Shown here: positions 4,141 through 23,884 of the stretch, piece after piece
Layout of the letters: each line of letters begins with the position of its first letter
Position numbering within the stretch: position 1 is the stretch's first letter
From: Paracoccaceae bacterium
GTDB taxonomy: Bacteria > Pseudomonadota > Alphaproteobacteria > Rhodobacterales > Rhodobacteraceae
Assembly (NCBI GenBank): GCA_029862205.1
Contig: JAOTXT010000035.1
Coordinates: 1-42,515, forward strand
DNA length: 42,515 nucleotides
Reading direction: 5' to 3'
Made by a program: the position numbers and the translations under genes
Notes under the pieces: generated by a model
The model's database searches: none
What the model saw: the letters and a program-made list of their open reading frames with translations, nothing else
What the model was told of the DNA's origin: nothing

Positions 4141-4161
4141 TCTCGCCGAAATGGTCGGAGA

Positions 4162-4473: not shown

Positions 4474-4637
4474 TGATACTTCCCTCCTGGATCAATCTGT
4501 CAGCAGCGATCCGCGCAGGCGCGAATCCCAGCGACTATGCGCATGATCGTGGCGTTGAGCAACTATAAGGCGCGCGCAATGGGGCGATTGGTAAGAAAAT
4601 TGCCGCCCGGTCAGGTCGCCTTGGGATCAACTCGCGC

Positions 4638-4686
4638 GGATTCCGGGGGATTCCGGTTGTGCCGGGCGCCGAAACTTTACTAAAGT
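4638..4686 (+). promoter_or_regulatory. operator-like repeats upstream of the Liv operon
   Basis: Two direct copies of GGATTCCGG (4638-4646 and 4648-4656) sit ten bases apart, one helical turn. Eighteen bases further is a perfect 13-base palindrome ACTTTACTAAAGT (4674-4686). Both lie within the 286-base gap before the binding-protein gene at 4760. Helically phased direct repeats and a perfect dyad at this place fit regulator binding sites, but no regulator gene is linked and no clear -10 box was found. Confidence 0.4.
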
Positions 4687-4759
4687 CCGCCGCAGAAACG
4701 GTCTGGCGAAACCAAGACCGGAGAAATGGAACGAGTCATCAAGGGAGGAGACTCAAGAG

Positions 4760-5986: not shown

Positions 5987-6007
5987 GGCCGAGCGACTGA
6001 AACGGAC

Positions 6008-6040
6008 AGGGCCGGCCCGGAACCTGGGCCGGCCCTTCTT
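6008..6040 (+). terminator. intercistronic hairpin after the LivK-like gene
   Basis: AGGGCCGGCCC (6008-6018) and GGGCCGGCCCT (6026-6036) form a perfect 11-base stem with a 7-base loop, followed by TCTT. It lies between the binding protein and permease genes. It probably acts as a partial terminator or 3' stabiliser that raises binding-protein mRNA over the membrane components. Confidence 0.75.
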
Positions 6041-6072
6041 GCAAATCCGAGCGCAATACCGGAGGGGAGCCC

Positions 6073-6978: not shown

Positions 6979-8009
6979 AGTGGCTCGTCTATATTGCGTT
7001 TATCGCAATTTCGCTGGCCGCGCCGCTGGTCTTTCCGGCCTATACTCAACAGTTCTCGGCCCTTTGGGTGCTGATCATCCTGGCCATGACCTGGGACATG
7101 CAGGGCGGGCAGATGGGCTATAACTCGCTGGGGAACATCTTCTTCTTCGGCTTTGGGATGTATGTGAGCGCGGTCGTGCAAGTCTCGATCGCCCACGATA
7201 TCGGCGAATACACCTATGCGGGCGGCATCAACGTCTTCCAGTTCACCGATGGGCAGTATTTCACCGGCCTGGTGCTGGGGGTCGCAGCGGCTGGGATCCT
7301 TTGCGCACTGTTGGCCTTTCCGCTCGGATGGATTCTCTTCGGCCTGCGCGGACCCTATTTCGCCATCGGCACGTTGGGCGTCGCCATCGCGGCCGGCGAG
7401 ATGGTCGGCACCTGGGAATGGGTCGGCGCCGGCCAAGGAATCTCGATGCCGCCTTTCCCGGGCAATCCCGACACCGCAAAGTTCGTCCTCTACATCATGA
7501 ACATGATTACCGGCATGGTTTGCTTCGCGGTCATCGCCTGGCTCTATTCCACGCGCTTCGGCCTGGCGCTGAACGCGATCCGCGACGACGAGCAGAAGGC
7601 CGAGGGGATGGGGCTGCAGACTCTGTGGATCAAGCGGGTCTGCTGGGCGGTCGCCGCCTTCTTCGTCGGCATTTGCGGGGCGATCTACGGCAATACCGTG
7701 GGGTTCATCGAACCCCTGGAGGTGGCGTTCCAGACCATCTATCTGGGCATCTTCATGGTGGTTGCCGTGCTGCTGGGCGGCAAGGGCACGCTCTGGGGTC
7801 CGGTCGTGGGAGCGATCGTTTTCCATACGCTGAAAGAGGTCACCTGGACCCATTTCCTCGGTTGGCAATGGGTGGCGTTGGGCGTGCTGATCGTCGTCAT
7901 CGTGGTCTATTTCCAGGAAGGCATCATGGGCTGGCTGCAGCGCCAGCGGCCTGAATGGTTCGGCATCCGGGTCGAGTCTCGAGAGCCCGAGGCGGAGGCG
8001 GCCACATGA
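6975..8009 (+). CDS. LivM-type ABC transporter inner-membrane permease
   Basis: 344 aa with about nine membrane helices and a charged cytoplasmic tail (VESREPEAEAAT). LivM features are the N-terminal WDMQGGQMGYNSLGNIFFFG segment, which corresponds to the GQxSLGxxxFFGxGAY motif, and the coupling loop TRFGLALNAIRDDEQKAEGMG. Together with the LivH-like protein it forms the channel. Its start overlaps the previous stop by four bases and its stop overlaps the start of the first ATPase by four bases, so the operon is tightly coupled. An extra loop (about residues 75-95, IGEYTYAGGINVFQFTD) faces the periplasm between the second and third helices. Confidence 0.9.
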   Translation: MKWLVYIAFIAISLAAPLVFPAYTQQFSALWVLIILAMTWDMQGGQMGYNSLGNIFFFGFGMYVSAVVQVSIAHDIGEYTYAGGINVFQFTDGQYFTGLVLGVAAAGILCALLAFPLGWILFGLRGPYFAIGTLGVAIAAGEMVGTWEWVGAGQGISMPPFPGNPDTAKFVLYIMNMITGMVCFAVIAWLYSTRFGLALNAIRDDEQKAEGMGLQTLWIKRVCWAVAAFFVGICGAIYGNTVGFIEPLEVAFQTIYLGIFMVVAVLLGGKGTLWGPVVGAIVFHTLKEVTWTHFLGWQWVALGVLIVVIVVYFQEGIMGWLQRQRPEWFGIRVESREPEAEAAT

Positions 8010-8764
8010 ACGTCGTCAACGGACATGCCGTCATCGAGATCGACAAGGTCACCAAGACCTTTGGCGGGGTCGTCGCCAACAAGGACATCTCGCTGAAGGT
8101 GCAAGAGGGAGCGATCACCGGCATGATCGGTCCGAACGGTTCGGGCAAGACCACGCTCTTCAACTCGATCGTCGGCTTTCACCCGATCGATACCGGCTCG
8201 ATCAAGTTCGAAGGCAACGAAATCTCGAAGCTCCGGGTGCAGGAGATCGCCCGCCTGGGCCTGCTGCGCACGTTCCAACAGACCCGGATCTACGGCAAGA
8301 TGAACTGCGTCCAGAACATGCTGATCTCGATCCCGCACCGCAAGGCGGGGCTTTTGGATATTTTCGCCGATCACCGCGCCGAGGACCGCGAGCGCGCCGA
8401 GCACCTGCTGGAATTCGTCGGGCTCTACGAAAAGCGCTGGCTGATGGGCGGCGATCTCAGCTTCGGGCAGCAGAAGCTGCTGGAGTTTGCCATGGCGCTG
8501 ATGAACGAGCCCTCGGTGCTGATGCTCGACGAGCCGACGGCGGGCATCAACCCGACGCTAATTAATGGCCTGATCGACCGGCTGAAACGCGCCAACGAGG
8601 AGTTCGGCATTACCCTATTCGTGATCGAGCACAACATGCGGGTGATCATGAACCTGGCCGAGCACATCTACTGTCTGGCCCATGGGGAACTGCTGGCCGA
8701 GGGCACGCCGGGCCAGATCCAGAACGACCAGCGCGTTATCGACGCCTATCTGGGAGCCCATTGA
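8006..8764 (+). CDS. LivG-type ABC transporter ATP-binding protein
   Basis: 252 aa from the ATG at 8006, which overlaps the LivM stop by four bases; the frame is open further upstream but that part lies inside the permease gene. Walker A is GPNGSGKTT (42-50). The Q-loop region is RTFQQTRIYGKMNCVQNML, the signature is LSFGQQKLLE (151-160), Walker B is VLMLDEPTAG (171-180), and the switch His is in VIEHNMRVIM. The Gln-for-Gly change in the signature (SFGQQ) is standard for LivG. It powers import together with the LivF-like ATPase. The stop overlaps the next start by one base (TGATG). Confidence 0.92.
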   Translation: MNVVNGHAVIEIDKVTKTFGGVVANKDISLKVQEGAITGMIGPNGSGKTTLFNSIVGFHPIDTGSIKFEGNEISKLRVQEIARLGLLRTFQQTRIYGKMNCVQNMLISIPHRKAGLLDIFADHRAEDRERAEHLLEFVGLYEKRWLMGGDLSFGQQKLLEFAMALMNEPSVLMLDEPTAGINPTLINGLIDRLKRANEEFGITLFVIEHNMRVIMNLAEHIYCLAHGELLAEGTPGQIQNDQRVIDAYLGAH

Positions 8765-9648
8765 TGGCCGCAGAGAACGAAACGGCGAACGAAGAGGCCC
8801 GGAAGAAAGCCAGCGGCTATCACACCGGTGCCGTCGATGTGGTCATGTCGGTCGATGCGGTGGCCCGCGAGGCGGCACAGATCGCGGCGGAAGCGCCGAA
8901 GGCCGAGGAACTGGCCGCCCTGGCCAAGGGCGAGGCGTATCTGACCATCGACAAGTTGCGCGCCGGCTATGGCCGGATGGAGATCCTGCACGATTTCGAC
9001 CTGAGCGTCGGCAAGGGCCAGTCGCTGTGCCTGATCGGCCCGAACGGGGCCGGCAAGTCGACCGTGCTGCATTCGATCTTCGGGTTCACCAACATCTTCA
9101 GCGGCTCCATCACCGCAGGCGGCACTGATGTCACCAAGCTGAAGCCGAACGACAAGCTGAGGACCGCGGGCATCGCTTATATCCTGCAGGACAACTCGGT
9201 CTTCCCGGACATGACGGTCGAGGAAAACCTGCTGATGGGCGGCTACCTGAAGGACACGACCGATCAGGCCAAGGAATCGGCCGAACAGGTGTTCAAGAAA
9301 TACGACCGGCTGGCGGCTAGGCGCGGGCAGCCGGCGCGGGTGCTCTCGGGTGGCGAGCGGCGCCTGCTGGAGATCAGCCGTGCCCTGGTCATGGGGCCGG
9401 AGGTGCTGCTGGTCGACGAGCCCTCGATTGGCCTCGAGCCCCGCTTCATCGACATGGTCTTCGAGATCCTGGACGACCTGCAGCACGGCGAGGGCAAGAC
9501 CATCGTAATGGTCGAGCAGAACGCCAAGAAGGGCCTGGAATTCGCCGATCTGGGCTACGTCCTGGTCTCCGGCCAATTGGCCAAGGCGGGTCCGGGGGAT
9601 GAACTGTTGGCCGACCCGGATGTGGGGCGGCTGTTCCTGGGGGGATAG
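8764..9648 (+). CDS. LivF-type ABC transporter ATP-binding protein with N-terminal extension
   Basis: 294 aa. The ABC domain starts only at about residue 59 (LTIDKLRAGYGRMEILHDF). Walker A is GPNGAGKST (92-100), the signature is LSGGERRLLEISRAL and Walker B is VLLVDEPSIGL, with the switch His replaced by Gln (MVEQNAKKGL), which is usual for LivF. Typical LivF proteins are about 235 residues and begin directly at the ABC domain. Here about 58 residues precede it, rich in Ala and Glu with a probable helix (VDAVAREAAQIAAEAPKAEEL). The ATG overlaps the previous stop by one base. No good internal start with a ribosome-binding site was seen, so the extension is likely translated. Its role is unknown. 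Confidence 0.9.
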   Translation: MAAENETANEEARKKASGYHTGAVDVVMSVDAVAREAAQIAAEAPKAEELAALAKGEAYLTIDKLRAGYGRMEILHDFDLSVGKGQSLCLIGPNGAGKSTVLHSIFGFTNIFSGSITAGGTDVTKLKPNDKLRTAGIAYILQDNSVFPDMTVEENLLMGGYLKDTTDQAKESAEQVFKKYDRLAARRGQPARVLSGGERRLLEISRALVMGPEVLLVDEPSIGLEPRFIDMVFEILDDLQHGEGKTIVMVEQNAKKGLEFADLGYVLVSGQLAKAGPGDELLADPDVGRLFLGG

Positions 9649-9686
9649 TCCAGGACTTTGGACGTCGCTCCGGCTGGAGGTCTTTC

Positions 9687-10265
9687 ATGCAAACGATCTG
9701 CGTCTTTTGCGGCTCGGCCGAGGGTATCGACGAGCGGCACAAGCAATTCGCTCACGAGGCCGGGCGGCGGCTTGCGGCCATGGACATGCGCCTGGTCTAT
9801 GGGGGCGGCGATTTGGGGTTGATGGGCATCCTCGCGCGCGGATGCGAGGAGAATGGGGGCGAGATTGTCGGGATCATTCCAGAATTCCTGAACAAAGCCC
9901 ACATCGTGAAGACCAAGAAGAACAACCACATCGTCACGATCGACATGCACGACCGGAAGATGAAGATGTTCGAGATGGCCGATGCCTTCGTCGCCCTGCC
10001 CGGCGGCGTCGGCACGCTGGAAGAGCTGATGGAGGTCATCACGCTCAAGCAGCTCGGCCAGCACGCGAAACCGATCCTGATCGCGAATATCGGCGGGTTC
10101 TGGGACCCGCTGATCGATCTGATCTCGCATATGCGGGCGCAGGGTTTCGTCAACAAGGATTACGAAATCGACTTTCAAGTCATTCAGTCGATTGAAGAAT
10201 TTGGCTTCGCGCTCCGTGAGATTTCAACGCAGAAAGGCGCCTCGCCAGAGGCCGCGGCCCTCTAG
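9687..10265 (+). CDS. LOG-family protein (TIGR00730; nucleoside 5'-monophosphate phosphoribohydrolase)
   Basis: 192 aa, the usual size. The Rossmann-like fold shows the N-terminal VFCGSAEG, the YGGGDLGLMG loop (38-47) and the diagnostic PGGVGTLEE motif (105-113), which binds the nucleotide phosphate and carries the catalytic Glu. LOG enzymes split the N-glycosidic bond of nucleoside monophosphates, releasing cytokinin-like bases or adenine plus ribose 5-phosphate. GGAGG lies six bases before the ATG. The gene starts 38 bases after the LivF-like stop on the same strand, so it may be the last gene of the transporter operon, which would suit a purine- or ureide-related ligand, though that is only suggestive. 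Confidence 0.88.
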   Translation: MQTICVFCGSAEGIDERHKQFAHEAGRRLAAMDMRLVYGGGDLGLMGILARGCEENGGEIVGIIPEFLNKAHIVKTKKNNHIVTIDMHDRKMKMFEMADAFVALPGGVGTLEELMEVITLKQLGQHAKPILIANIGGFWDPLIDLISHMRAQGFVNKDYEIDFQVIQSIEEFGFALREISTQKGASPEAAAL

Positions 10266-10282
10266 ACATTTGTGCCCCGGCG

Positions 10283-11041
10283 TTACCCGCCAGCAACGCG
10301 GGTCTCGGTCGTTGCGCCGCCGGACGGGTCGAACCGGTGGAGATAGTAGATCGGCCGTCCCTCCATCTGCGCAGGGTAGTCCCCCTTGCGAAGCGTCGTC
10401 GCAACGGCGGTCGCGACGGTGACCGGGATATCGCCCACATGGCCTTCGGTCGGGCGATGCACGTGGCCGCAGAATAGCGCGCTCACGCGCCCCGATTGCC
10501 GCAGCGCGTCGCAGAGCCTCGACATGACCTCCTGGCTCTCGAAATGCATCCGCTCGGGTCCGACCAGAACCTCGAACGGCGGATGGTGTAGGAAGACGGC
10601 AACTGGCCGCACGGGGTCCGCGCCGATCAACCGGTGCAATTCCTCGATCCGCCGGGCGCAAAAATCGCCCTTGTTGCTGCTGATGCTGACGGTGTCGAGC
10701 ATGACCAGGCGCACCGGATGGCCTTCGACGGCGTATTGGATGAAGTCCGATCCCGGGTCAAAATACCCGTCCGCCGAGAACGCCGCGCTCAAGTTCCCCC
10801 GTTCGTCCTTGTTGCCGGCCATTGCATAGACCGGCGCCTGCGCCCGTTCCAGGATCGCACGGGCCTCCGCGTATTCCTCGGCCAGGCCGTTATGGACGAT
10901 GTCGCCCGAATGGACGATCAGATCGGGCGCCGGGTCGAGGGCGTTGATATCGGCGACCACGGCGGCGAAATCCGCGCGCCGCCGGTCCGCATCGGGCGTG
11001 TCCAGGGCGAGATGGGTGTCGGAGATCTGGGCGATGAGCAC
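10283..11041 (-). CDS. CpdA-like calcineurin-type metallophosphoesterase with altered GNHD motif
   Basis: 252 aa with a GTG start 10 bases after the sat stop, so it is the last gene of the sulfur operon. Class III phosphodiesterase motifs are DTH (8-10), GDIVHNG (46-52), GNKDER (76-81), LHHPP (151-155) and GHVH (192-195). Five of the metal-binding and catalytic positions are intact, but the histidine of the usual GNHD/E motif is lysine. Relatives include cyclic-AMP phosphodiesterase CpdA and glycerophosphodiesterase GpdQ. The change may lower activity or shift substrate choice; some relatives are known to vary here. Placement next to sat invites the idea of an adenine-nucleotide substrate, which the sequence cannot prove. 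Confidence 0.82.
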   Translation of the reverse strand: MLIAQISDTHLALDTPDADRRRADFAAVVADINALDPAPDLIVHSGDIVHNGLAEEYAEARAILERAQAPVYAMAGNKDERGNLSAAFSADGYFDPGSDFIQYAVEGHPVRLVMLDTVSISSNKGDFCARRIEELHRLIGADPVRPVAVFLHHPPFEVLVGPERMHFESQEVMSRLCDALRQSGRVSALFCGHVHRPTEGHVGDIPVTVATAVATTLRKGDYPAQMEGRPIYYLHRFDPSGGATTETRVAGG

Positions 11042-11051
11042 GGGGCGAGCC

Positions 11052-12230
11052 TCAAGCCGAATTCAAGCTCGCGTAGTATTCCTTCAGGATCGCGACCACC
11101 TCGGGGCGGCTGAACTCGGGCGGGATCTCGGCGTCGTTCGACAGCATCTCGCGCTGTTCGGTGCCGGAGATCTGGATGCGGTCCTTCGCGCCGTGCGGGC
11201 AAGTCTTGCCGGTGGCCATACCGTAGCACTTGCGGCAATAGAAGGTGATGTCGATCTTTAAGGGCTGGGTCAGCAGCGCCCCGTCCCAAAGCTGGTCGAA
11301 GATGTGATGCGCGTCGAAGGGACCATAGTAATCGCCCACGCCCGCGTGGTCGCGCCCGACGACCAGGTGAGAGCAGCCGAAGTTCTGGCGGATCAGCGCA
11401 TGAAGCAGCGCCTCACGCGGGCCCGCGTAGCGCATCTCGATCGGATAGCCGGCCTGGATCACCGTTCCGGGCCGGAAATAATTGTCGATCATCGCCTGAA
11501 TCGCGCGGGTGCGGACTTCCGCCGGGATGTCTCCCGCCTTCAGCTTGCCCAGCACCTGATGGATGAACACCCCATCGGTCACCTCGACGGCGATCTTTGC
11601 CAGATGCTCGTGGCTGCGGTGCATCGGGTTGCGGGTCTGGAAGGCGGCGACGGTTGACCACCCGTTCTCGAGGAACATCGCACGGGAGTCCGCGGGGCGG
11701 ATATAGAGGTCCGGGTAGTTTGCCGGATAGGCGCCTTCGCTGAGCACCGACACCCGCCCGGCCAAGTTCACATCACCCTGGGCCAGCACCTTGGCGACGC
11801 CGGGATGGGCCGGGTCGGTCGTACGGTAGACATGCTCCGCCTCGACCCGCTTGTCGATCGAGTAGGTCTCGGAGACCTCCATAATCGCCAGGACCTCGCC
11901 GGTCTCGCCGTCGGTCAGCGCCACGTGCTCGTCCGCGCCCACCGCGCCGGCGACCTGAGCATCGATCGGCAGGGTGATCGGGATCGGCCAGAAGACGCCG
12001 CTTGCCAGGCGCATGTCCAGGCAGGACCCGCGCCAATCGTCATGGCCCATGAAGCCGTCGAGCGGCGTGTAGGCGCCCATCGCCAGCATGAAGACGTCCG
12101 AGACCGCGCGGGAATCGAGCACGATCTTGCGCAGCCCCTCGGCCCGCCTCAGCTCCTCCTCCCTTTCAACCTCGGGTACCAGCAGGGGCTTGACCGTATC
12201 GGATCCGTGCGGTGGTACGAGTTTGGACAT
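11052..12230 (-). CDS. sat: sulfate adenylyltransferase (ATP sulfurylase), homo-oligomeric type
   Basis: 392 aa, starting at the ATG for [18 protein letters not shown]; frames open further upstream are non-coding. The N-terminal PUA-like domain (about 1-165) is followed by the catalytic domain with [11 protein letters not shown] (198-208, the HxxH-like active site loop) and GRDHAG (292-297). A small metal-binding-type cluster CRKC...TCPHG (Cys332, Cys335, Cys344) follows, as in dissimilatory and archaeal Sat. There is no APS-kinase domain. In the cytoplasm it interconverts ATP + sulfate and APS + PPi. Beside aprBA in a proteobacterium it most likely runs towards ATP, giving substrate-level phosphorylation during sulfite oxidation. 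It is separated from the 52-aa gene upstream by 172 bases that contain a hairpin. Confidence 0.95.
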
Positions 12231-12253
12231 TGGCAAGTGCTTCCGGAAAGTGT

Positions 12254-12276
12254 CGGGTCTCTTGAGAGGCGACCCG
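12254..12276 (-). other. hairpin in the leader of sat
   Basis: CGGGTC (12254-12259) pairs with GACCCG (12271-12276), and the inside can extend through TCTC/GAGA. It lies 24 bases before the sat start in a 172-base gap that has no gene. It could be an RNA processing or attenuation site separating sat from the apr genes. No run of T follows. Confidence 0.35.
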
Positions 12277-12402
12277 TGAACGTTCGGTTGGCGTGGGCTT
12301 GGGTCAGGAACCCGGATCGGACGCGCGATGCCCACGCACGGCACCGCCAAGCACTCGCGGGGCCCGCCCCGCCTGTGCTCAGGATAGTGCCCGGGATGCC
12401 GC

Positions 12403-12561
12403 CTAGGGCCGCTTGGGGGTCTCGTAGGGTACTTCCGTCTGGAACTCTTCCCAGACGGTTTCGTATCCGACAAAACCCTTTTCGTTCGGTTCTTTCTGCC
12501 GTGTCACGTAGTAAGGCGTCTTGCCGTCAGGAACTTTAGCTTTGGAATCTACGTTACCCAT
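12403..12561 (-). CDS. small unknown protein of the apr-sat operon (52 aa)
   Basis: A 52-residue gene with a GAGAGGTGA ribosome-binding site just before its ATG. The product is hydrophilic and aromatic: after [20 protein letters not shown] it continues with [20 protein letters not shown] and ends ETPKRP. No signal peptide, membrane helix or cysteine is present. I do not recognise the family. It lies between the FKBP gene (48 bases) and sat on the same strand, with codon use like its neighbours, so it is probably co-transcribed and could be a small partner of the sulfur enzymes. It is too short for most gene finders and easy to miss. Confidence 0.7.
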
Positions 12562-12609
12562 GGGTCACCTCTCGTCGTTGCTGTTCATACCATTGCTTAA
12601 GTCGGTGCC

Positions 12610-13119
12610 TCAAGTCGGCCTCATCAACGACGGGTCGACTTGCGGATCGGCAACGATCGCCCCGCCTGCTTGCATTTCTTCATCGGTTGCGTTGCGCACC
12701 GTCAGCACCTCGAGCGTGAAGACGACCTCGCGACCGCAAAGCGGGTTGTTGCCATCGATGGTCAGCGTCTCGTCGTCCATCCGCGTAACCAGGAAAGAAC
12801 GGGTCTGGCCGCTTTCGCTTTCCATGAGGATCGAGTTGCCGATTTTCCGGTATTCTTCGGGCACGTTCTCGATGCGGTCAGTAAAGACCAACGACTCGTC
12901 CCGGTCCCCGTAGATCAGGTTGCCGTCGATCGGCACGTCGATCACGTCCCCGGCGCTTTTGCCTTCAAGCTGCCTATGGACGAAGGGGGCGAGGATTTCA
13001 TTGTGCCCGTGGATATAGCCGAGCGGAAATTCGACATAAGTCAGGACCTGGCCCGACTTCTTGTCGGTCACCTTGTAGGTCAGTTCGACGAATTTTCCGT
13101 CCTCGATGGTGTCACTCAT
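12610..13119 (-). CDS. FKBP/SlyD-type peptidyl-prolyl cis-trans isomerase
   Basis: 169 aa from the ATG at 13119. The FKBP half shows VELTYKVTDKKSGQVL and LGYIHGHNEILAPFVHRQLEG, and the C-terminal return strand shows DGNNPLCGREVVFTLEVLTV then RNATDEE, both typical of SlyD (DGNHPLAGxxLxFxVxVxxVReATxEE). Between them is the insert-in-flap chaperone region (about 70-125). The His/Cys-rich nickel tail of E. coli SlyD is absent. These are cytoplasmic folding helpers and chaperones. Its place inside the apr-sat operon suggests a dedicated role in folding or cofactor loading of Apr or a partner; that is inference. Confidence 0.82.
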   Translation of the reverse strand: MSDTIEDGKFVELTYKVTDKKSGQVLTYVEFPLGYIHGHNEILAPFVHRQLEGKSAGDVIDVPIDGNLIYGDRDESLVFTDRIENVPEEYRKIGNSILMESESGQTRSFLVTRMDDETLTIDGNNPLCGREVVFTLEVLTVRNATDEEMQAGGAIVADPQVDPSLMRPT

Positions 13120-13151
13120 GCCAATACACCAGCCCAATGCCCCCGCGCGCC

Positions 13152-13502
13152 TCAGAAGATGGACGCGCCGAAGATGCGCACTTCGTCATTTTCGAACCCG
13201 AGGACCAGACGGCCCAACCATTCTCCAGGTTTCGAGGTGCTCTTCTGTCGGTAAAGAACGGTCACATGCTCACCCCTGCGGATGGTTCCAATGAAATCCG
13301 CATCCTCCGCCAGGTTCCGCGCAAGCTCGCTATTGGCGAACTGGTGCCCCGCCTCGACCTGGTTCATCGCGCGTGCGAGCGAGCTGGAGAAATTCTTTGC
13401 GAACTCTCCGTATTTGCCCTCGTTCGAGTGCTTGACGAGATCCAGCCACAGCGGTTCGGCGATCGTCATGATCTCCTCGTCGGTTTTGAACACAATGCTC
13501 AC
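13152..13502 (-). CDS. unknown 116-aa protein of the apr-sat operon, possibly NTF2-like
   Basis: 116 aa with a GTG start; a second GTG three codons on or the ATG at codon 12 are alternatives. The sequence has an N-terminal helical part (AEPLWLDLVKHSNEGKYGEF, then FSSSLARAMNQVEAG) and a C-terminal run of beta strands (EHVTVLYRQKS, then GRLVLGFENDEVRIFGASIF). That helix-then-sheet order, with a closing strand ending in GAxIF, resembles small SnoaL/NTF2-like or DUF3887-like folds, but no catalytic residue stands out and the family is not recognised. It lies 118 bases downstream of aprA and 32 bases upstream of the FKBP gene, on the same strand. Confidence 0.72.
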   Translation of the reverse strand: MSIVFKTDEEIMTIAEPLWLDLVKHSNEGKYGEFAKNFSSSLARAMNQVEAGHQFANSELARNLAEDADFIGTIRRGEHVTVLYRQKSTSKPGEWLGRLVLGFENDEVRIFGASIF

Positions 13503-13591
13503 GCGATGTTCTCTTGGGCTGTGTCATACCGGGACCGCTGGCGGCGGCAGAGGCAGGCCCACTGGGGTCTACCGATCTTGATTTGTCTCCA

Positions 13592-13608
13592 CCGGCAGGG
13601 GGTGCCGG
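13592..13608 (-). other. hairpin after aprA
   Basis: CCGGCA (13592-13597) and TGCCGG (13603-13608) form a 6-base stem with a 5-base loop, twelve bases past the aprA stop in the 118-base gap before the 116-aa gene. There is no T run. It may stabilise the aprMBA part of the transcript. Confidence 0.35.
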
Positions 13609-13620
13609 CGGAAAGCTTGG

Positions 13621-15489
13621 CTATTCGCCCTCGCCGACGAGGTGGTAACAAGGTGCCTTTTCCATGGTGTATTTTCCCGATTCGGGATCGCGCCGCGACA
13701 CCGTCAGAACGTGCCAGTTTTCGTCGTCCACCTTCATGTGATCGCCGCGGTAATAGTAGCCCGGCCAGCGCGTTTCCTTGCGGAAAAGCGTATGCTGGGT
13801 CACACATTCGGCCGCGCGGTGGCGGTGCTTCAGCTCCCAGGCGCGCAACAGTTCGTGGATATCCTCGGCGGCAAGTGACTCGAGGTCCTCTTCCATGATC
13901 TTGAGCTTCTTGAGGCCGATATTCAGGAGCTTTTCGTTGGTCATGTAGCTGACGGTCACGCCACCGCAATATTCGTCCATCAACTTCTGCAGGCGGTCGA
14001 GCCCCTGTTTTGGGTTGATGTAGTGTGGGTTAACGTCGCCCGCGACAATCTCGTTGCGGTAGATCCTGTAGTGCTCAAGCGGCTTATAGATTTCTTCCTT
14101 GCGCCCTTCGATCTGCGCCTCGGAAACCACAATGCCCTCGCCCTTGCCGTCATCGATATACTGGCACGCCGCCTTTGCGGCGAGGCGACCTTCCGTAAAT
14201 GAGCCGGACGAAAAAGCGTGCGGGGTTCCGCCGACGGCGTCCCCGGCGCCGAACAGACCTTCGACCGTCGTCATCCGGTTGTAGCCCCAGAAGTACTCGT
14301 CCGGTGATACATCCTCCGGACCCGAGCACCATGCGCCGCTGCCGGTCGCATGAGAGCCCATGACATAAGGTTCCGACGTGGTCAGTTCGGGGTTCTCGTT
14401 CTTGGGGTCCACATCCGTGGAGGCCCACAGAACCGCCTGGCCGATGGTCATGCCGAGGAAGTTTTCCCAGCCGACCTCTTCCAGGTGCGGGTCCTGGAAG
14501 GAATGCATGGTCACCATGTGGATCGGCCCGCGGCCCGCGTTCATCTCGCTGATCATCGCATGATTGCGCAGACAGGTCGGAATAGGCCGGTGTGTCAGGT
14601 GTGATGCTTCCGGATCCAGGTACTCCTTGCCGACCATCTTCTGCAGCTCGGGGAACCACTTGGATTCGTACTCCTCGCCAACGCCGTTCTGGGTATAGGT
14701 CTTGAGGTGCAGGAAGTAGGCACCGACCGGCCCGTAGCCGTCCTTGAAGCGCGCCAAAACGATCCGGTTTTCCATCTGGGTCATCTTGGCGCCAGCGTCG
14801 ATCAACAGCCCGTAGGCCGAGGCCGACGACCACGGCGCGTACCAGGTCCGGCCCGAGCCTTCGCCAACCGAACGCGGCTTGAAGATGTTGGATGCGCCAC
14901 CGGCGCTGCAGATCACGGTCTTGGACTTAAAGACGTGGTAGTTTCCCGTGCGCACGTTGAAGCCGACAGCGCCGGCAACCCGGTTCTCCTTGCTTTCGTC
15001 CATCAACAGGTGGGTGACGCAAATCCGGTTGAAAACTTCGTCAGCCGACTTCTTGGCAGCCTCGGCCACGATCGGCTTGTAGGACTCGCCGTGGATCATG
15101 ATCTGCCAACGGCCCTCACGAAGATATTGCCCCGTTTCCGGATCCTTCATGATCGGCAGGCCCCATTCTTCGAACTGGTGCACCGTGCTGTCCACGTGAC
15201 GCGCCATGTCGAAAAGCAGGTCCTCGCGCACCAGACCCATCAGGTCGATGCGGGCGTAGCGGACGTGGTCTTCGGGATTATTCTCGCCCCAGCGCGTCCC
15301 CATGTAGCAGTTGATCGCGTAGAGGCCTTGAGCGACGGCGCCCGAGCGGTCGATATTGGCCTTCTCGGCAATGACGATCTTCTTGTCCTGGCCCCAATAG
15401 CGGGCCTCGAATGCGGCACCCGTGCCGCCCAGACCCGCACCGACCACCAAAATGTCGATGCCGTCCTCGACAATCGTTTTGTGAGCCAT
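13621..15489 (-). CDS. aprA: adenylylsulfate reductase alpha subunit
   Basis: 622 aa, the normal size. The FAD-binding N-terminus shows DILVVGAGLGGTGAAFEARY (GAGLGG at 17-22) and the fumarate-reductase-type flavoprotein fold follows. It has segments characteristic of AprA, such as CSAGGASNIFKPRSVGEGSG, HLTHRPIPTCLRNHAM and GDAVGGTPHAFSSGSFTEGR, and the long C-terminal domain with HTLFRKETRWPGYYYRGDHM. With AprB it interconverts APS and sulfite + AMP in the cytoplasm; in a sulfur oxidiser it makes APS. Its ATG overlaps the aprB stop by one base (TGATG), so the two subunits are translationally coupled. Confidence 0.97.
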   Translation of the reverse strand: MAHKTIVEDGIDILVVGAGLGGTGAAFEARYWGQDKKIVIAEKANIDRSGAVAQGLYAINCYMGTRWGENNPEDHVRYARIDLMGLVREDLLFDMARHVDSTVHQFEEWGLPIMKDPETGQYLREGRWQIMIHGESYKPIVAEAAKKSADEVFNRICVTHLLMDESKENRVAGAVGFNVRTGNYHVFKSKTVICSAGGASNIFKPRSVGEGSGRTWYAPWSSASAYGLLIDAGAKMTQMENRIVLARFKDGYGPVGAYFLHLKTYTQNGVGEEYESKWFPELQKMVGKEYLDPEASHLTHRPIPTCLRNHAMISEMNAGRGPIHMVTMHSFQDPHLEEVGWENFLGMTIGQAVLWASTDVDPKNENPELTTSEPYVMGSHATGSGAWCSGPEDVSPDEYFWGYNRMTTVEGLFGAGDAVGGTPHAFSSGSFTEGRLAAKAACQYIDDGKGEGIVVSEAQIEGRKEEIYKPLEHYRIYRNEIVAGDVNPHYINPKQGLDRLQKLMDEYCGGVTVSYMTNEKLLNIGLKKLKIMEEDLESLAAEDIHELLRAWELKHRHRAAECVTQHTLFRKETRWPGYYYRGDHMKVDDENWHVLTVSRRDPESGKYTMEKAPCYHLVGEGE

Positions 15490-15968
15490 CAGTAGTACAC
15501 GCCTTTTTTCATCGTGAGCCCGTTCGATTCCAGCGTGTGTAGGTCACCGTCATCCATGCGTAGGTAGTTGGGCTCGCTGTAAAGAAGCTGGCTGTCGCGC
15601 ATTTCCTGGCTGGGCCCGGGAGCCTCGGCAAGCTGCGGGATGTCGCGGCCCCAGGGCTTCGTAGTGATCGGTGAAAGGAAGTTCTTTTCGGTCCCGTCGC
15701 GGAACTTGATCCGCCAAGCGATCGTGCCTTTTTGCTCATCACGATCGACGCGGACGCTGTGACCGAGCGGTGCGAAATCCGCATAACCGCGCACGTCAAT
15801 TGCATTCTGCGGGCAAGCCTTCACGCAGGAATAGCACTCCCAACACATGCTGGGTTCGATGTTGTATGCGCGGCGCGTGGTCTTGTCGATGTGCATGATG
15901 TCCGAGGGGCAGATGTCGACGCAATGTCCGCACCCGTCACATCGGGTCATATAGACGAAAGTTGGCAT
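15489..15968 (-). CDS. aprB: adenylylsulfate reductase beta subunit (2x[4Fe-4S])
   Basis: 159 aa. Two ferredoxin-type clusters are visible: Cys10, 13, 16 and 20 (CDGCGHCVDICP) and Cys42, 45, 48 and 52 (CWECYSCVKACP). In known AprB the longer loop between clusters tunes one potential strongly negative. The C-terminal tail (about 110-159) contains LSPITTKPWGRD and NYLRMDDGDL, the arm that wraps around AprA. It carries electrons between the AprA flavin and the membrane partner. It follows aprM by 58 bases and overlaps aprA by one base. Confidence 0.97.
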   Translation of the reverse strand: MPTFVYMTRCDGCGHCVDICPSDIMHIDKTTRRAYNIEPSMCWECYSCVKACPQNAIDVRGYADFAPLGHSVRVDRDEQKGTIAWRIKFRDGTEKNFLSPITTKPWGRDIPQLAEAPGPSQEMRDSQLLYSEPNYLRMDDGDLHTLESNGLTMKKGVYY

Positions 15969-16026
15969 GAACCGGTTCCCTGTCTTTTCGGATCGTTGTT
16001 GCGATCAGCCGATTAGTAGTGGCGCA

Positions 16027-16857
16027 CTAGTAGTGACGGGGGACTTCGCGCTTGATGCCAAGCCCCATATCCATCGGAGCGTCGCGCAGAAGTTCCATCG
16101 AATGCCGCCGCTGTTGCTCGGGATCGTCACGGGTCAGTGTTGGCAGGTTCATCGCCGAGCCGTTGGCCTTTGCCACCCGCTTTTCGAATGCAGCTGCAGG
16201 CTTGAAGAACATATGCGCGAACTTCGACCAAGGCACCGAGCCAAAGAGCACCGTAGCCGCGATCACGTAGAGGATCAGAAAGATCACCGTCAGCGCACTG
16301 CCACCGACGCTCTGGCCGATACCCCATAGGATCCCAAATGTGACCGTGCCGAGCAGCGACAGGACGAAAAGATCCGCCCGGACCAGCCGGAACGGCGAGT
16401 GCCCTTCTGCAGCGACATCGACCCTGATGAAGAACCAGAACCAATACCCCCCGCCGCAGACCATCAGCGCGCCGACATACCAGAGGAAGATCATGAAACT
16501 GGACGCCTCGGCGCCCCCGAAGACCAGGCTGATCGTTGCGATCAGATACAGAATGAAGCCATACATGGTCAGCAGATGGGCGATCCGGCGGTCCCGGTTG
16601 CAGAACTCGGCCGACGTCAGCACATCCTTCGCAACGGTCTGAACCGCCAGCGAGGCCACCTCGCCGCCGCCGATCGGGCGGGCTCCCTTGTCCTGGGTGC
16701 GGTTCCAGTTGTCGAAGAAATATTTCGCGCTGCCCTTGTGCCAGACATCGTAGAGCGTGCCGCCCACGACCAGCAGGATCATCAGGATCACGTAGGCCTG
16801 CATGAGACCGCTGGGAATCGTGGCGGAAAGCTCGGCGAAGGGATTGGTCGTGAACAT
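16027..16857 (-). CDS. aprM: AprM-type membrane anchor of adenylylsulfate reductase
   Basis: 276 aa from the ATG at 16857; upstream in-frame codons look non-coding. There are five hydrophobic helices (about 19-36, 97-115, 120-145, 163-183 and 188-208), and basic C-terminal cytoplasmic residues. His94 (RRIAHLLTMYGF) and His215 (SKFAHMFFKPAAAFEKR) lie at helix ends in the manner of the heme-binding, NarI/QmoC-related proteins. The gene sits directly before aprB-aprA, the order of the AprM-type loci of sulfur oxidisers, whereas sulfate reducers use QmoABC. The expected role is passing electrons from AprBA to the quinone pool. No strong ribosome-binding site is visible; the operon promoter should lie in 16858-17067. 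Confidence 0.88.
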   Translation of the reverse strand: MFTTNPFAELSATIPSGLMQAYVILMILLVVGGTLYDVWHKGSAKYFFDNWNRTQDKGARPIGGGEVASLAVQTVAKDVLTSAEFCNRDRRIAHLLTMYGFILYLIATISLVFGGAEASSFMIFLWYVGALMVCGGGYWFWFFIRVDVAAEGHSPFRLVRADLFVLSLLGTVTFGILWGIGQSVGGSALTVIFLILYVIAATVLFGSVPWSKFAHMFFKPAAAFEKRVAKANGSAMNLPTLTRDDPEQQRRHSMELLRDAPMDMGLGIKREVPRHY

Positions 16858-17067
16858 TCTTTGATTTCCCGAAGAGGGTTCCCTGATTGGGCGCCACCTT
16901 AGCCAGTGGGTCTCGTGGCGGCAATCTGGAAATCCAACGTTTTGGTATCGATTTTTGCGTTTCCTGAAGGATATATGGAGCCAATTCTCAATGTTGTGCA
17001 GGGCCACTTGCGCAGCCGGGAAAACCAGGGCGCCGAAAGCGTGCGCCGGTTAGAGGCGGCCCCGCGA

Positions 17068-18450
17068 TCAAGCGGCGGCCGACCGGCCGGCGATGGCGCC
17101 GAGCGCCACGGCAGTCAGCAGGCCGTTGCCCGACAGATACCCCTCGACCCGGGCGCCCGAGACACCACAGGCAGCGCCGCCGCCCGCGTAGAGATTGGGG
17201 AGCGCCGTGCCATCGGACCGCAGCACCCGCGCAGCGGCGTCGATCACCAGGCCGCCCTGGGTGTGGAACAAGGCGCCAGTCACCTTGACCGCATAGAATG
17301 GCGCTTCGAGGGCCGGCTTGGTGCTGAAATCGCGCCCGAATGGGTCCGGCGCATCGTCCGCGCGATACGCCGTCACCTCGCCGATCGTCTGCCTCAAAGC
17401 ATCCTCCGTCAGGCCCGTGGCCTGGGCGAGTGCCGCCGCGTCCGGCCCGGAGTGGATGGCCCCCGCCTCGGCCGCCGCACGGTAATCGGGGAAGCCGAGA
17501 CCCATTTGGTGCAATCGTTCGTCGTAGATATTCCAGGCCACGGCGCCGGGCTGGGAGAGCACCTTGACCGCCTGTTCGGAATAGCCCTCGTGCTCGTTCG
17601 AGAATCGGCGCCCTCGCGCGTCGACCTGGATGCCCCCCTCCATCATCAGCGCCCAGGTGATCAGGATGCCGTGGGGATGGGCCAACGACCCGTGGCCCTG
17701 ATAGGCGGTCAGGTCCTTGGTGGCGGCGCCCAGCGCCCTGCCCCAGACCACTGCGTCACCGGTATTGCCCGGATGACCGAAATAAAGAGCGCCGGCGATC
17801 TCCGGAATATTCTCCGACACCAGGCCCGGGTTACCGCCATAGCCGTTGCAGGCGAGGACGACGGCGCGGCAGGCAATGCTCTCGGTCGCGCCGTCCGGGC
17901 GGGTCAGGCTGGCCCCGGTGATGCGGTCGCCATCGGTATGGAGCGTATCCGCCCGCGCACCGGTCACCACGGTCAGCCCCGCAGCTTGCGCCGCTGCCAT
18001 CAAGCGCGTCATCAAGCCGATACCGGTCTTCTCGGGCACCGCGTGCATCCTGTGCGTCGAATGGCCGGGATAGAGGAAATCGTCCAGCACCTGCCATTCC
18101 AGGCCATGGGCGTCCGCCAGCCATTCCAGCGTCGGCCCAATCTCACGGGTCACCGCCTCGACAATGGCCGGATCGGCGCCCATCGCCGCCTTCTTCTGGA
18201 TGTCGCGGGCGAAATCCTGTGGCGTTTCCTCGACCCCGATGGCCCGCTGGAACCGGGTGCCGGGGGCGGGGATGAACCCCGAGGACATCGAGGTCGACCC
18301 CATCGGCCGAGGGTCGCGTTCAAGAACGATGACCTCGGCCCCAGCTTCAAGCGCGCGCAGCCCAGCGACCAGGCCGCAGGCGCCGCCACCGATGATGACA
18401 ACGCCGGTCTCGATGTCATGGGTGTCGAGCGGTGGGGCAATCTCTACCAA
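17068..18450 (-). CDS. FAD-dependent oxidoreductase, fumarate reductase/ketosteroid dehydrogenase family (copy 1)
   Basis: 460 aa. The N-terminal FAD motif is VVIIGGGACGLVAGLRALEAG (GGGACG at 21-26), followed by LERDPRPMGSTSMSSG. The C-terminal FAD lock is LYAGGGAACGVSG with GYLSGNGLLTAVALG, typical of FAD_binding_2 enzymes that reduce or dehydrogenate C=C bonds. The conserved LFHTQGGLVID near 400 places the substrate loop. There is no signal peptide, so it acts in the cytoplasm. It is the last gene of the run lyase-hyuB-hyuA-isochorismatase-flavoprotein, with a REPIN in the 154 bases before it. A paralogue lies at 33399-34745. The substrate is unknown: an unsaturated acid or cyclic amide would fit the neighbours. 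Confidence 0.83.
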   Translation of the reverse strand: MVEIAPPLDTHDIETGVVIIGGGACGLVAGLRALEAGAEVIVLERDPRPMGSTSMSSGFIPAPGTRFQRAIGVEETPQDFARDIQKKAAMGADPAIVEAVTREIGPTLEWLADAHGLEWQVLDDFLYPGHSTHRMHAVPEKTGIGLMTRLMAAAQAAGLTVVTGARADTLHTDGDRITGASLTRPDGATESIACRAVVLACNGYGGNPGLVSENIPEIAGALYFGHPGNTGDAVVWGRALGAATKDLTAYQGHGSLAHPHGILITWALMMEGGIQVDARGRRFSNEHEGYSEQAVKVLSQPGAVAWNIYDERLHQMGLGFPDYRAAAEAGAIHSGPDAAALAQATGLTEDALRQTIGEVTAYRADDAPDPFGRDFSTKPALEAPFYAVKVTGALFHTQGGLVIDAAARVLRSDGTALPNLYAGGGAACGVSGARVEGYLSGNGLLTAVALGAIAGRSAAA

Positions 18451-18468
18451 AGTGCCCGCTCCCGTGCC

Positions 18469-18542
18469 GTAGGGTGGGCTCGCACGAGCTCACCTTGCAG
18501 GGGCTTACGATTCGACGGTGGGCTCTGCCGAGCCCACCCTAC
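18469..18542. repeat. REPIN (two inverted GTAG-headed REPs), GTGGGCTC variant
   Basis: The ends are a perfect 17-base inverted repeat including flanks (18466-18482 against 18529-18545). Each end begins with GTAG on its outward strand and then forms its own hairpin: GGTGGGCTCGCACGAGCTCACC on the left, starting at 18473, and a matching hairpin with CTGC loop on the right. Short palindromes headed by GTAG and paired head to head are the form of REPINs spread by RAYT transposases. It sits between the isochorismatase and flavoprotein genes. Confidence 0.75.
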
Positions 18543-18567
18543 GGCGGCAGCGCGCCGCTCATCGAGA

Positions 18568-18586
18568 TCCCGGGGCAAGCCCGGGA
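18568..18586. repeat. short CCCGGG palindrome
   Basis: TCCCGGG (18568-18574) and CCCGGGA (18580-18586) flank GCAAG. Similar CG-rich dyads occur at 28657 and 33368 in this window. It is 18 bases after the isochorismatase stop, as read on the minus strand, and could act as a hairpin in the transcript. Confidence 0.5.
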
Positions 18587-18604
18587 CATTTGGAGAGATC
18601 ACCA

Positions 18605-19213
18605 TCACCGCCCTTCGATCCAGGCCAGTGCCTCGGCACAAGTCATCACGTTCGAGACCGTGCCCAGATCGGCAATCGCGGTCTCGTGCACCTGCGCGTT
18701 GAAGGCGGCGCAGCCGTCGGAGAGCACGGCGGTGCGGAAATCCCGCACATGGGCGTCGCGCACGGTCGAGGCGACGCCGCCATTGGTGACGATGCCGCCG
18801 AAGATCAGTGTCTCGATCCCGGCGCGGCGCAGCACGAATTCCATCCGGCTCATGTAGAAGGCGGAATAGGCGACCTTCTCGACGTTCAGATCCGCGGGCT
18901 GCAATTCATCGACCAGGGCGTGCCCCCAGCCGCCGGGCTCGAAGTCGCCCTTGGCCAGGAAGGGGCGGAGCTTTTTCAGGTGATCGAGGATGAAGGGCTC
19001 GCCGTCCTTGCCAGGGACCAAGGTAAAATGGGTCGAGACGATCCAGCCATCGGCCTGGCGCAGGGCATCGGCCAGGAGGCCAAGGCGCCCGGGCAAAGCG
19101 GCGATATCAGCCGAGGTCTGCCCAGCCCGGCCATAGGCGCCTTGCGGGTGAAGGAAATCGTTCTGCAGGTCGACCAGCACCAGGGCGGTGGTCGCGGCAT
19201 CAATCGGCTGCAT
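18605..19213 (-). CDS. isochorismatase-family hydrolase lacking the nucleophilic cysteine
   Basis: 202 aa from the ATG at 19213; it overlaps the end of hyuA by 14 bases. The fold is clear: ALVLVDLQNDFLHP (Asp15), NVEKVAYSAFYMS (Lys113) and GGIVTNGGVASTVRDAHVRD. In amidases of this family the loop reads VTNxCV, with Cys as nucleophile; here that position (146) is Gly. Isochorismatase proper (PhzD/EntB type) also works without this Cys, so the protein could be an active hydrolase of a different bond type or a non-catalytic member. Paired with HyuAB one would expect an N-carbamoyl amidase, which this residue argues against. A second family member with the Cys lies at 36197-36892. Confidence 0.85.
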   Translation of the reverse strand: MQPIDAATTALVLVDLQNDFLHPQGAYGRAGQTSADIAALPGRLGLLADALRQADGWIVSTHFTLVPGKDGEPFILDHLKKLRPFLAKGDFEPGGWGHALVDELQPADLNVEKVAYSAFYMSRMEFVLRRAGIETLIFGGIVTNGGVASTVRDAHVRDFRTAVLSDGCAAFNAQVHETAIADLGTVSNVMTCAEALAWIEGR

Positions 19214-21257
19214 CGGCGTCTCCCCGGGTGATTGTGATGTTGCCGAACCGGTCGATCCGACCGACAAGCCCAGGATCGATGAAAATCGTGGTGTCCGGCT
19301 GCTCCAGCAAGGCCGGTCCCGGGATCGCGGCGCCCTCGGGCAGGTCGAGCCGCTCGTAGACGGGCGCGGACATGTCGGCTCCATCGAAACGGATCTGGCG
19401 GGTGCCGCGCTGGCAATTCTCAACCCGGCCTTCGGGCGGGGCGAACACGCGCATGTCGAAATGGGGCCGCCGCCCGGTCACCGAGACACGGTAATTCAGC
19501 ACCCGGGCCGGGATCGCCTTTAGAAGCCGCCCATAGGCGCGCAGGTAAGCGGAATCGAACGCCTTTTGCACTGCGTCTGGCGAAAGCGGTCCGTCGAGGC
19601 TCAGCGGCACCGCCACCGTGTGGGTCTGGCCCAGATAGAGCATGTCGAGCTCGAAGTGTTGATCGATCCGCTCGAACCCGACGCCCGCGCGGCCAAGCAG
19701 CGCCTCGGTCTCCTCGGCGACGGCCCGCATTTCAAATTCGAGCGCGGCGCAGTCCAGATCGCCGAGCAAACGGTTGACCGTCTGCACCCGGTCATGGCGC
19801 ATGTCCGCCACCACGCAGCCGAGCGCCGAAGTGACGCCCGGGAAGCGCGGCACCAGGGCCGCGCCCAGGCCGACATCGTGCATCAAAGCGCCTGCGTGGA
19901 GCGCACCGCTGCCGCCAAAGGGCATGGCCGCGAATTTGGCCGGGTCATGTCCCCGCTCGATAGACACCAGCCGGATGGCGCCCGCCATCTTGGCATTGGC
20001 GACCCGCAGAACCGCCTCGGCGGCATCCAATGGGTCGAGGCCCAGCGGTTCGGCGATATGGGTCCGGATCGCGGCCTCGGCCGCCGCGACATCGAGCCGG
20101 TCGAGCTTGCCGCCGATGGGCCGGTCCGCGTTGATCCGGCCCAGCACCAGGTTCGCGTCGGTCACGGTGGGGCGGTCATTACCGAGCCCATAGCAGGCAG
20201 GCCCCGGATCGGACCCTGCGGATTCCGGCCCGACCTGCAGGATGCCGCCCGCATCGACCCAGGCGATCGAACCGCCACCCGCGCCGATGGTGGTGATCTC
20301 GATCATCGGTGTGCGCACGGCCATGCCGAAATCGATGGCGGTTTGCGCGGCCAGCGCCGCCTCGCCATCGGCGATCAGCGAAACATCGAACGAGGTGCCG
20401 CCCATGTCGCAGGTGATCACGTTCTCGAAGCCGGCGGCCTTGGCGATGGAACGGGCCGCTATTACACCGGCCGCGGGGCCCGAGAGCGCGGTGCGCACGG
20501 GGAACCGCTTCGCGGTCTCGACCGCCATCACGCCGCCATTCGACTGCACGATCAGCACGTCGCCATCCGCGCCGCGCCCAGCCAGCGCGCCCTCGAGCCG
20601 ATCCAGGTAGGACGAGACGACCGGTTGGAGATAGGCGTTTAGCGCCGCGGTCGAGGCGCGCTCGAATTCTCGGATCTCGGGGATGATCTCGGTCGAGACG
20701 GTGACGTAAGCGTTGGGCCAGACCGCGCGCACGGCCTCGGCCGCCGCAGCCTCGTTCGCGGCATTGGCGTAGCTGTTGATGAAAAAGACGCAGACCGCTT
20801 GGCAGCCCGTGTCGCGCAGAATCGCGGCCGCGTCCGCCACACTTTCAGGGTTTATGGCAGTGTGCACCGTGCCGTCCGCGTGGGTGCGCTCCGGGATTTC
20901 CCAGCGCAGATCGCGGCTGATCACAGGTTCGAACTGGCCCCACAGGCCCCAGGTCCGGGGCCGGTCACGGCGGCGCATCTCGAGCACGTCGCCGAAACCG
21001 GCCGAGGTGATCAGGCCGGTCTTGGCGCCCTTGCGCTCCAGCAGCGCATTGGTGCCGACAGTTGTGCCGTGGATCACGGTGGCAATATCGGCCATGTCAC
21101 CGATCTGAGCCGCGATGCCTTGGATAAAGCCCTGCGACTGGTCTTCCTTTGTCGAGGGAACCTTGCCGGTCCGCACCGCTCCCGCAACCTCGTCCCAGAC
21201 AAATATGTCGGTAAACGTGCCGCCCACGTCGACGCCGATGACGTAGCGGCCGGTCAT
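19200..21257 (-). CDS. hydantoinase/oxoprolinase family subunit A (HyuA-like)
   Basis: 685 aa from the ATG at 21257, which overlaps the hyuB stop (ATGA). The N-terminal ATPase motif is GVDVGGTFTD (8-17), followed by VIHGTTVGTNALLERKGAKT, the Gly-rich phosphate loop CDMGGTSFDVSLI and GAGGGSIAWVD. These are signatures of the Hydantoinase_A domain. The length fits N-methylhydantoinase or 5-oxoprolinase A subunits. With HyuB it uses ATP to open a cyclic amide such as N-methylhydantoin or 5-oxoproline. Acetone carboxylase relatives are larger and have a third subunit, not found here. The actual substrate cannot be told from sequence. Confidence 0.9.
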   Translation of the reverse strand: MTGRYVIGVDVGGTFTDIFVWDEVAGAVRTGKVPSTKEDQSQGFIQGIAAQIGDMADIATVIHGTTVGTNALLERKGAKTGLITSAGFGDVLEMRRRDRPRTWGLWGQFEPVISRDLRWEIPERTHADGTVHTAINPESVADAAAILRDTGCQAVCVFFINSYANAANEAAAAEAVRAVWPNAYVTVSTEIIPEIREFERASTAALNAYLQPVVSSYLDRLEGALAGRGADGDVLIVQSNGGVMAVETAKRFPVRTALSGPAAGVIAARSIAKAAGFENVITCDMGGTSFDVSLIADGEAALAAQTAIDFGMAVRTPMIEITTIGAGGGSIAWVDAGGILQVGPESAGSDPGPACYGLGNDRPTVTDANLVLGRINADRPIGGKLDRLDVAAAEAAIRTHIAEPLGLDPLDAAEAVLRVANAKMAGAIRLVSIERGHDPAKFAAMPFGGSGALHAGALMHDVGLGAALVPRFPGVTSALGCVVADMRHDRVQTVNRLLGDLDCAALEFEMRAVAEETEALLGRAGVGFERIDQHFELDMLYLGQTHTVAVPLSLDGPLSPDAVQKAFDSAYLRAYGRLLKAIPARVLNYRVSVTGRRPHFDMRVFAPPEGRVENCQRGTRQIRFDGADMSAPVYERLDLPEGAAIPGPALLEQPDTTIFIDPGLVGRIDRFGNITITRGDADAAD

Positions 21258-23769: not shown

Positions 23770-23884
23770 CGCCGGTCCTTTTCCCGGAGTTGTCGTCTCC
23801 GAACGGTTATGAGAATTTTTTGCACAACGTCCATGGCATGGCACCCGCCTGCCGGAAATGGCGGCGATCGGGGAGGATAAGAAC

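Follow-up and report, generated by a model that had tools for sequence, protein, structure and literature searches.

Loci for adenosine 5'-phosphosulfate (APS) reductase (Apr) of the AprM type have been proposed to work in the direction from sulfite and adenosine monophosphate (AMP) to APS (PMC2211403, PMC3779200), and the native electron partner of the lineage I enzyme of sulfur-oxidizing bacteria (SOB) was called unknown in 2008 (PMC2211403). Here we describe such a locus in a 42,515-nucleotide stretch of DNA from Paracoccaceae bacterium (GCA_029862205.1, contig JAOTXT010000035.1; hereafter the window), one contig (C95) of a 4.44-Mb genome in 160 contigs (G000). Eight genes on its minus strand follow in the order aprM-aprB-aprA-p116-SlyD-like-p52-sat-phosphoesterase. 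As in the sat-aprMBA locus of Allochromatium vinosum (SOB Apr lineage I), aprM, aprB and aprA stand in the same order with sat nearby. The window differs from the AprM-type loci in the accessible published texts (aprM, aprBA and sat, with qmo in others) in that p116, a SlyD-like gene, p52 and a phosphoesterase gene are added. No description of p116, the SlyD-like gene and p52 beside apr was found in searches of open-access full texts, in agreement with the first-pass annotation, which had called this set not a described system.

We consider it about an even bet (probability roughly 0.5) that p116, the SlyD-like protein and p52 form an accessory module specific to a single clade of AprM-type APS reductases. 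The reading rests on gene linkage, co-occurrence, purifying selection, the Burkholderiales-type relatives of aprB, aprA, p116 and slyD, and the agreement with the length of the AprM tail. The window genome holds one copy of p116 (13152-13502, minus strand), which encodes a conserved protein of 116 amino acids (aa) right after aprA. A scan of named genomes with p116 gave 101 relatives, and the best 80 of them were examined. In all 80 loci, aprA lay directly upstream of p116; the spacing between the aligned ends was 34-296 bp in 76 loci, and in the other four the terminal part of aprA stood at the edge of the contig. This adjacency is far more frequent than expected by chance. By title, 17 of the loci belonged to Burkholderiales/Betaproteobacteria and 4 to Rhodospirillales/Alphaproteobacteria, and 59 were of SAR11 type (58 titled Pelagibacteraceae and one, L086, titled Flavobacteriales). 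The SAR11-like apr locus of L086 probably stands on a mis-binned or mis-named contig of a metagenome-assembled genome, and the same probably applies to L027, an entry among the 17 named 'Bordetella parapertussis' with a Burkholderiales-like apr locus.

The SlyD-like gene (12610-13119, minus strand, 169 aa) and p52 (12403-12561, minus strand, 52 aa) were followed in a group made up of the window, the Burkholderiales loci and the other non-SAR11 loci with p116. This group has 34 locus entries from fewer genomes: the entries L106 and L142 are contig pieces of one genome, as are L143 and L144, and L040/L134 and L041/G194 are the same loci in two collections. Matches to p116 were present in 32 of the 34 entries, to the SlyD-like protein in 32 and to p52 in 31, the misses being contig ends or short contigs. 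The SAR11 loci consist of aprMBA, as far as the contig reaches, and p116; neither the SlyD-like protein nor p52 had a match in the 59 loci, nor anywhere in the complete SAR11-type genome G207. The strand and side of p52 relative to apr vary among genomes; it can lie upstream of aprM or be encoded on the opposite strand. The first-pass annotation would have given up its proposal if the neighbours of aprA in other genomes never included the small genes; p116, the SlyD-like gene and p52 proved to be conserved neighbours of apr elsewhere. A plasmid search with p116 found none, and 56 pattern matches in viral contigs included no p116 relative. A 21.8-kb record titled as a Klebsiella pneumoniae plasmid (NZ_CP061967.1) encodes an AprA 48% identical to that of the window, possibly as foreign DNA in the assembly.

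In seven compared pairs, all three small genes showed purifying selection, as real genes would, with dN/dS of 0.02-0.16 for p116, 0.11-0.15 for slyD and 0.11-0.32 for p52. Their products also align with their relatives from end to end. These values bear on the simplest alternative, neutral hitch-hiking, in which the genes would have moved together with aprMBA and have no role in Apr function. The window block does look shared with Burkholderiales as a unit, as that alternative would have it, but selection on all three genes, the retention of p116 in SAR11 and the persistence of p52 near apr despite its changed strand and side argue against hitch-hiking, which we regard as very improbable.

The AprA tree (45 rows, with a drawn rather than inferred root) placed the p116 loci, namely those of SAR11, the window, Burkholderiales and others, in one clade together with G001 (support 100/100). 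Within it, a long branch (0.59) leads to a sub-clade of the loci with both the SlyD-like gene and p52 (100/100). The AprM tail follows the same division. After the residues NLP it has 37-40 residues in all 27 non-SAR11 entries with p116 and a complete aprM, 21 residues in G001 as well as in 54 of 54 SAR11 loci, and 14-19 residues in 8 of 8 other loci without p116. The longer tail is therefore found together with the SlyD-like protein and p52, as a marker of the clade and not as a repeated independent change.

Co-occurrence was assessed in two samples, one of 398 Pseudomonadota genomes and one of 289 genomes of the class Alphaproteobacteria. In the former, aprM was found in 10 genomes, nine of which were real and included the window genome; G646 was left out of the count because its match was weak (E=1.6e-9) and lacked a neighbouring apr gene. 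All nine hold p116 and p52, and p52 was found in one further genome, G386 (10 of 398 in total). In the class sample, aprA was found in 15 of 289 genomes, 13 of which had aprM, and p116 in four, all among those 15; for the remaining 274 genomes the query for p116 was the window sequence alone. Taken together, p116 nearly always implies apr, and AprM-type apr does not imply p116.

The window p116 protein contains no Cys, has a pI of 5.35 and belongs to a family with the conserved stretches RRGxxxTxL and ExLGRLVxG. It had no match in Pfam or NCBIfam up to E=0.1 and no solved relative. Window p116 did not match DUF3887, nor was DUF3887 among the six families listed for 20 p116 members; one distant relative had a match below the cut-off (15.5 bits; cut-off 31.8). 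DUF3887 is, we assume, NTF2-like, and at a guess from this single match the fold of p116 might be small and cone-shaped. Two distant relatives, in L158 (7600-8489) and L156 (7976-10085), lie away from apr, and by eye a BLUF-like gene stands next to the p116 relative in L158 and two genes away in L156.

Such relatives speak for an alternative in which p116 would be a small ligand-binding or regulatory protein that responds to AMP, APS, sulfite or the redox state and tunes Apr without building it: distant relatives lie away from apr in three genomes, a BLUF-like gene is near two, and one relative has the sub-threshold DUF3887 match. However, no ligand motif was recognised in p116, and the aprA linkage and the AprM-tail agreement fit a structural partner better, so that we hold a ligand-binding or regulatory protein to be improbable. 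A second alternative takes p116, and p52 with it, as permanent structural or electron-transfer subunits of Apr that were missed because the crystallised enzymes are of another Apr type, with the SlyD-like protein alone acting as a chaperone. Permanent subunits are supported by the strict linkage to aprA and by the SAR11 loci, which keep p116 but lack the chaperone. The solved relatives of AprA (2fja, 1jnr and 3gyx), which are named adenylylsulfate reductase and presumably come from sulfate reducers, point the same way. The Archaeoglobus fulgidus Apr structure, for its part, is described in the literature (PMC2211403). Electron transfer through p116 is unlikely, because the window protein lacks Cys and any recognised cofactor family. 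AprM-type loci without p116 also speak against permanent subunits. On balance, permanent subunits seem rather doubtful to us, less so than a regulator.

Residues 9-153 of the 169 residues of the SlyD-like FKBP protein matched the profile of solved SlyD chains, from E=3.4e-20 for 2k8i to 2.7e-16 (2k8i, 2kfw, 8g01, 3cgm and 4odm). We take the first three to be Escherichia coli SlyD and the last two Thermus thermophilus SlyD. SlyD consists of an FKBP part and an inserted (IF) part, and the match extends across both. The window protein nevertheless departs from canonical SlyD. It fell short of the NCBIfam PRK10737 cut-off (66.7 bits; cut-off 174), and it lacks the C-terminal His-rich metal-binding tail of E. 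coli SlyD, a tail that is not general: there is no His or Cys in its last 30 residues, nor after column 140 in 10 aligned members. Furthermore, the GNH of 2k8i is GNN in all 10 aligned members. In 6 of 6 genomes tested of the non-SAR11 group, the apr-linked copies scored 265-321 bits and any other match at most 74 bits, a gap that marks the apr-linked proteins as a separate subfamily by their sequences. The p52 product is conserved and hydrophilic, has no Cys or His in the window copy and had no Pfam or NCBIfam family match; its composition suggests that it is probably unfolded when alone.

The partners of these proteins would be the products of aprM (16027-16857, minus strand, 276 aa), aprB (15489-15968, minus strand, 159 aa) and aprA (13621-15489, minus strand, 622 aa). 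A Pfam and NCBIfam scan covered ten proteins of the window. AprA, the alpha subunit, matched TIGR02061 with 1088.7 bits (cut-off 641.75), and AprB, the beta subunit with 4Fe-4S domains, matched TIGR02060 with 204.3 bits (cut-off 135.65) as well as PF12139, so that both exceed the curated cut-offs for dissimilatory APS reductase. AprM, the membrane protein of the AprM-type (SOB lineage I) enzyme with a tail of the 37-40-residue class, gave matches to QmoC and TcuB below the cut-offs. In the window, aprM directly precedes aprBA, in the place taken by qmoABC in other loci. The family assignment suggests an oxidative direction for the window Apr.

On these grounds the three small genes probably encode parts or helpers of Apr. 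The likeliest reading makes p116 an as yet undescribed subunit of Apr or a docking or assembly factor, accompanied by an atypical SlyD-like chaperone and the small partner p52. We lean towards p116 being a physical partner of AprBA/AprM and are evenly divided on whether it would act in docking or assembly or instead in regulation; maturation is one of several possible roles. In the mechanism that we propose, p116 would bind AprBA and help it to dock onto AprM or to remain stable there; the two electrons released when sulfite and AMP are converted to APS could then pass from the docked AprBA into the quinone pool. The SlyD-like protein may assist AprBA or p116 as a chaperone that folds or holds them, and p52 may be a short partner of extended shape that accompanies the longer AprM tail, presumably on the cytosolic side. 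Sat would then make adenosine triphosphate (ATP) from APS, independently of the module. A bolder version, which we offer tentatively and regard as rather unlikely, is that in one large clade that includes SAR11, p116 is an obligatory fourth Apr subunit coupling AprBA to AprM, and that p52, a clade-specific SlyD-type assembly chaperone and a lengthened AprM docking tail were gained together in a later clade.

Several results weigh against a module dedicated to Apr. In the class sample, p116 was missing from 9 of the 13 genomes with aprM, which indicates that not every AprM-type enzyme needs p116; G238 was counted among the absences, its weak match (E=0.08) being on a contig other than that of its aprA. 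In these nine genomes p52 likewise had no match (best E=0.76), and matches to the SlyD-like protein did not exceed 46 bits. The linkage of the small genes to apr, which bears on the module proposed in the first-pass annotation, is genuine without being general. Conversely, p116 was found in 14 of the 398 Pseudomonadota genomes, five of which had no aprM match. Two of the five (G386 and G438) are represented by contig pieces with slyD plus p52 or plus part of aprA. The other three (G339, G428 and G454) hold distant p116 relatives with no apr gene nearby, so the p116 fold has further uses. In the AprA tree, G001 sits within the p116 clade and has no p116; it joins the sub-clade with the SlyD-like gene and p52 at 91/85, a fork that is not starred, and may either have lost p116 or have branched before p116 arrived. 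G001 (L122, L123) carries two types of Apr: one is of the AprM type and has no p116 with it, and the AprBA of the other falls among loci that lack aprM. As for the AprM tail, its agreement with the module comes from one or two branches of the tree and from no independent events. The prolyl isomerase activity of the SlyD-like protein is uncertain, because its score is below the NCBIfam SlyD cut-off. Finally, the tag that follows aprMBA (Alvin_1119-1121) in A. vinosum, an organism with a second route of sulfite oxidation (PMC3779200), is Alvin_1122. Its product is named a 'conserved hypothetical protein', and its expression changed in an experiment with pyrite, but none of Alvin_1118 to 1121 (sat, aprMBA) was found with it in the main text of that report (PMC11267869). 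The case does not favour co-regulation, with Alvin_1122 matched to the p116 position by its tag only.

The module very probably serves Apr rather than Sat. The sat gene of the window (11052-12230, minus strand) encodes an ATP sulfurylase of 392 aa that exceeded the cut-offs of NF003166 and TIGR00339 and has 1jhd and 4dnx as its nearest solved structures. Of the 17 Burkholderiales loci, 13 contained sat; in 12 of these it is encoded on the strand opposite to apr, and in L026 it precedes aprM. It had no match in the available DNA of the 59 SAR11 loci, and the Pelagibacter ubique genome is reported to lack sat (PMC5069961). The nearest relatives of sat also differ from those of the apr block. The best matches of aprB (90% identity), aprA (93%), p116 (79%) and slyD (80%) were of Burkholderiales type, and p52 leans the same way as aprA (77% against 69%); aprM is undecided between Burkholderiales and the same class (67% against 65%). 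The window sat was 74% identical to that of G326, a genome of the same class in which the gene order is that of the window except that p52 is inverted, and at most 60% identical to those of Burkholderiales. The phosphoesterase also found its best match in G326 (56%) and none in the Burkholderiales loci. The window locus therefore appears to be a mosaic, in which an aprBA-p116-slyD block of Burkholderiales type stands beside an alphaproteobacterial sat and phosphoesterase.

It could still be argued that the SlyD-like protein and p52 work for Sat or in general folding and stand in the cluster by chance, since the window has both of them between aprA and sat. The general chaperone function of canonical SlyD would suit such a role. 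However, both genes remain beside aprMBA even where sat faces the other way or has no match nearby, the apr-linked SlyD is a separate high-scoring subfamily, and the window sat has different nearest relatives; we consider this alternative scarcely credible. The earlier proposal of a maturation or assembly module for Apr or Sat thus keeps its first half, an Apr-dedicated conserved gene set, and loses Sat, a module for which was rejected on the strand of sat, or the lack of a match to it, in the available DNA of the scan loci and on its other ancestry. All eight genes lie where the first-pass annotation had placed them, on the minus strand and with the same lengths, yet its single cluster is too simple: aprMBA and p116 keep together, and sat and the phosphoesterase differ in presence, strand and ancestry.

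We also considered whether the window is a mis-binned Burkholderiales piece. The tetranucleotide distance of positions 1-15000 to the bin was 0.145, against 0.12-0.20 for pieces of the bin itself and 0.51-0.71 for Burkholderiales loci, and mis-binning was rejected, although this does not settle every part of the window. The 7.1-kb apr stretch (0.236) was outside the bin's own range, and so were positions 15001-30000 (0.399 to the rest of the bin), possibly an acquired stretch.

The last gene of the locus (10283-11041, minus strand) encodes a CpdA/SpdA-like metallophosphoesterase of 252 aa. It shares PF00149 with the CpdA/SpdA phosphodiesterases and differs from them in its apr linkage and in scores far below the cut-offs: 95.8 bits to NF050112 SpdA over residues 25-209 (cut-off 400) and 55.2 bits to 3',5'-cAMP phosphodiesterase (cut-off 225). 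Of 14 alphaproteobacterial genomes with aprM that were tested, 10 have a phosphoesterase of this type no more than about 4 kb from an apr gene, the exceptions being G027, G288, G001 and G207; four genomes without p116 have it right next to aprA. Seven of the ten apr-linked copies supplied the search model, and those of G185, G279 and G511 had no part in it. Elsewhere in these genomes, copies scored at most 216 bits, compared with at least 250 for the apr-linked ones. The gene recurs beside alphaproteobacterial aprM loci with or without p116 (the window, L125, L127, L129, L130, L136, L038, L039 and L040). Its presence in loci without p116, and the lack of a match in the available DNA of the 17 Burkholderiales and 59 SAR11 loci, led us to reject it as part of the p116 module. 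What had been read as a built-in accessory of the cluster is a separate and wider association with alphaproteobacterial aprM loci.

A promoter scan gave one site against 1.8 expected, every terminator-like site on the minus strand lay within genes, and an Rfam search gave no match. Directly upstream of aprM, on the same strand, the window encodes an FAD-dependent fumarate-reductase-like protein (17068-18450). A second such protein (33399-34745) and a 461-aa protein with many RTX-like glycine-aspartate repeats (38269-39654) were read by eye.

With p116 beside aprA throughout the scan loci, 59 of them of SAR11 type, the protein becomes a concrete candidate for the missing electron link of AprM-type APS reductase. 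Its presence splits AprM-type loci into two kinds, and aprMBA of the p116 clade may fail without p116 when expressed in another host. Published expression data that speak for the module come from Thioalkalivibrio thiocyanoxidans, in which the hypothetical gene G372_RS0102895, with a tag beside that of aprA (..2900), rises together with aprA and aprB (logFC 1.93, 1.77 and 1.65, respectively) and sat (..2915) is about unchanged (-0.5) (PMC5744179). By its position, this gene may correspond to p116. Among Qmo-type systems, there is a likeness by description with Desulfovibrio vulgaris. There, the promoter-distal gene of the qmoABC operon, for QmoD, was reportedly described as hypothetical by Zane et al. 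in 2010. Like p116, it is an uncharacterised gene that accompanies an electron-transfer partner of Apr, but in D. vulgaris that partner is Qmo and in the window it is AprM.

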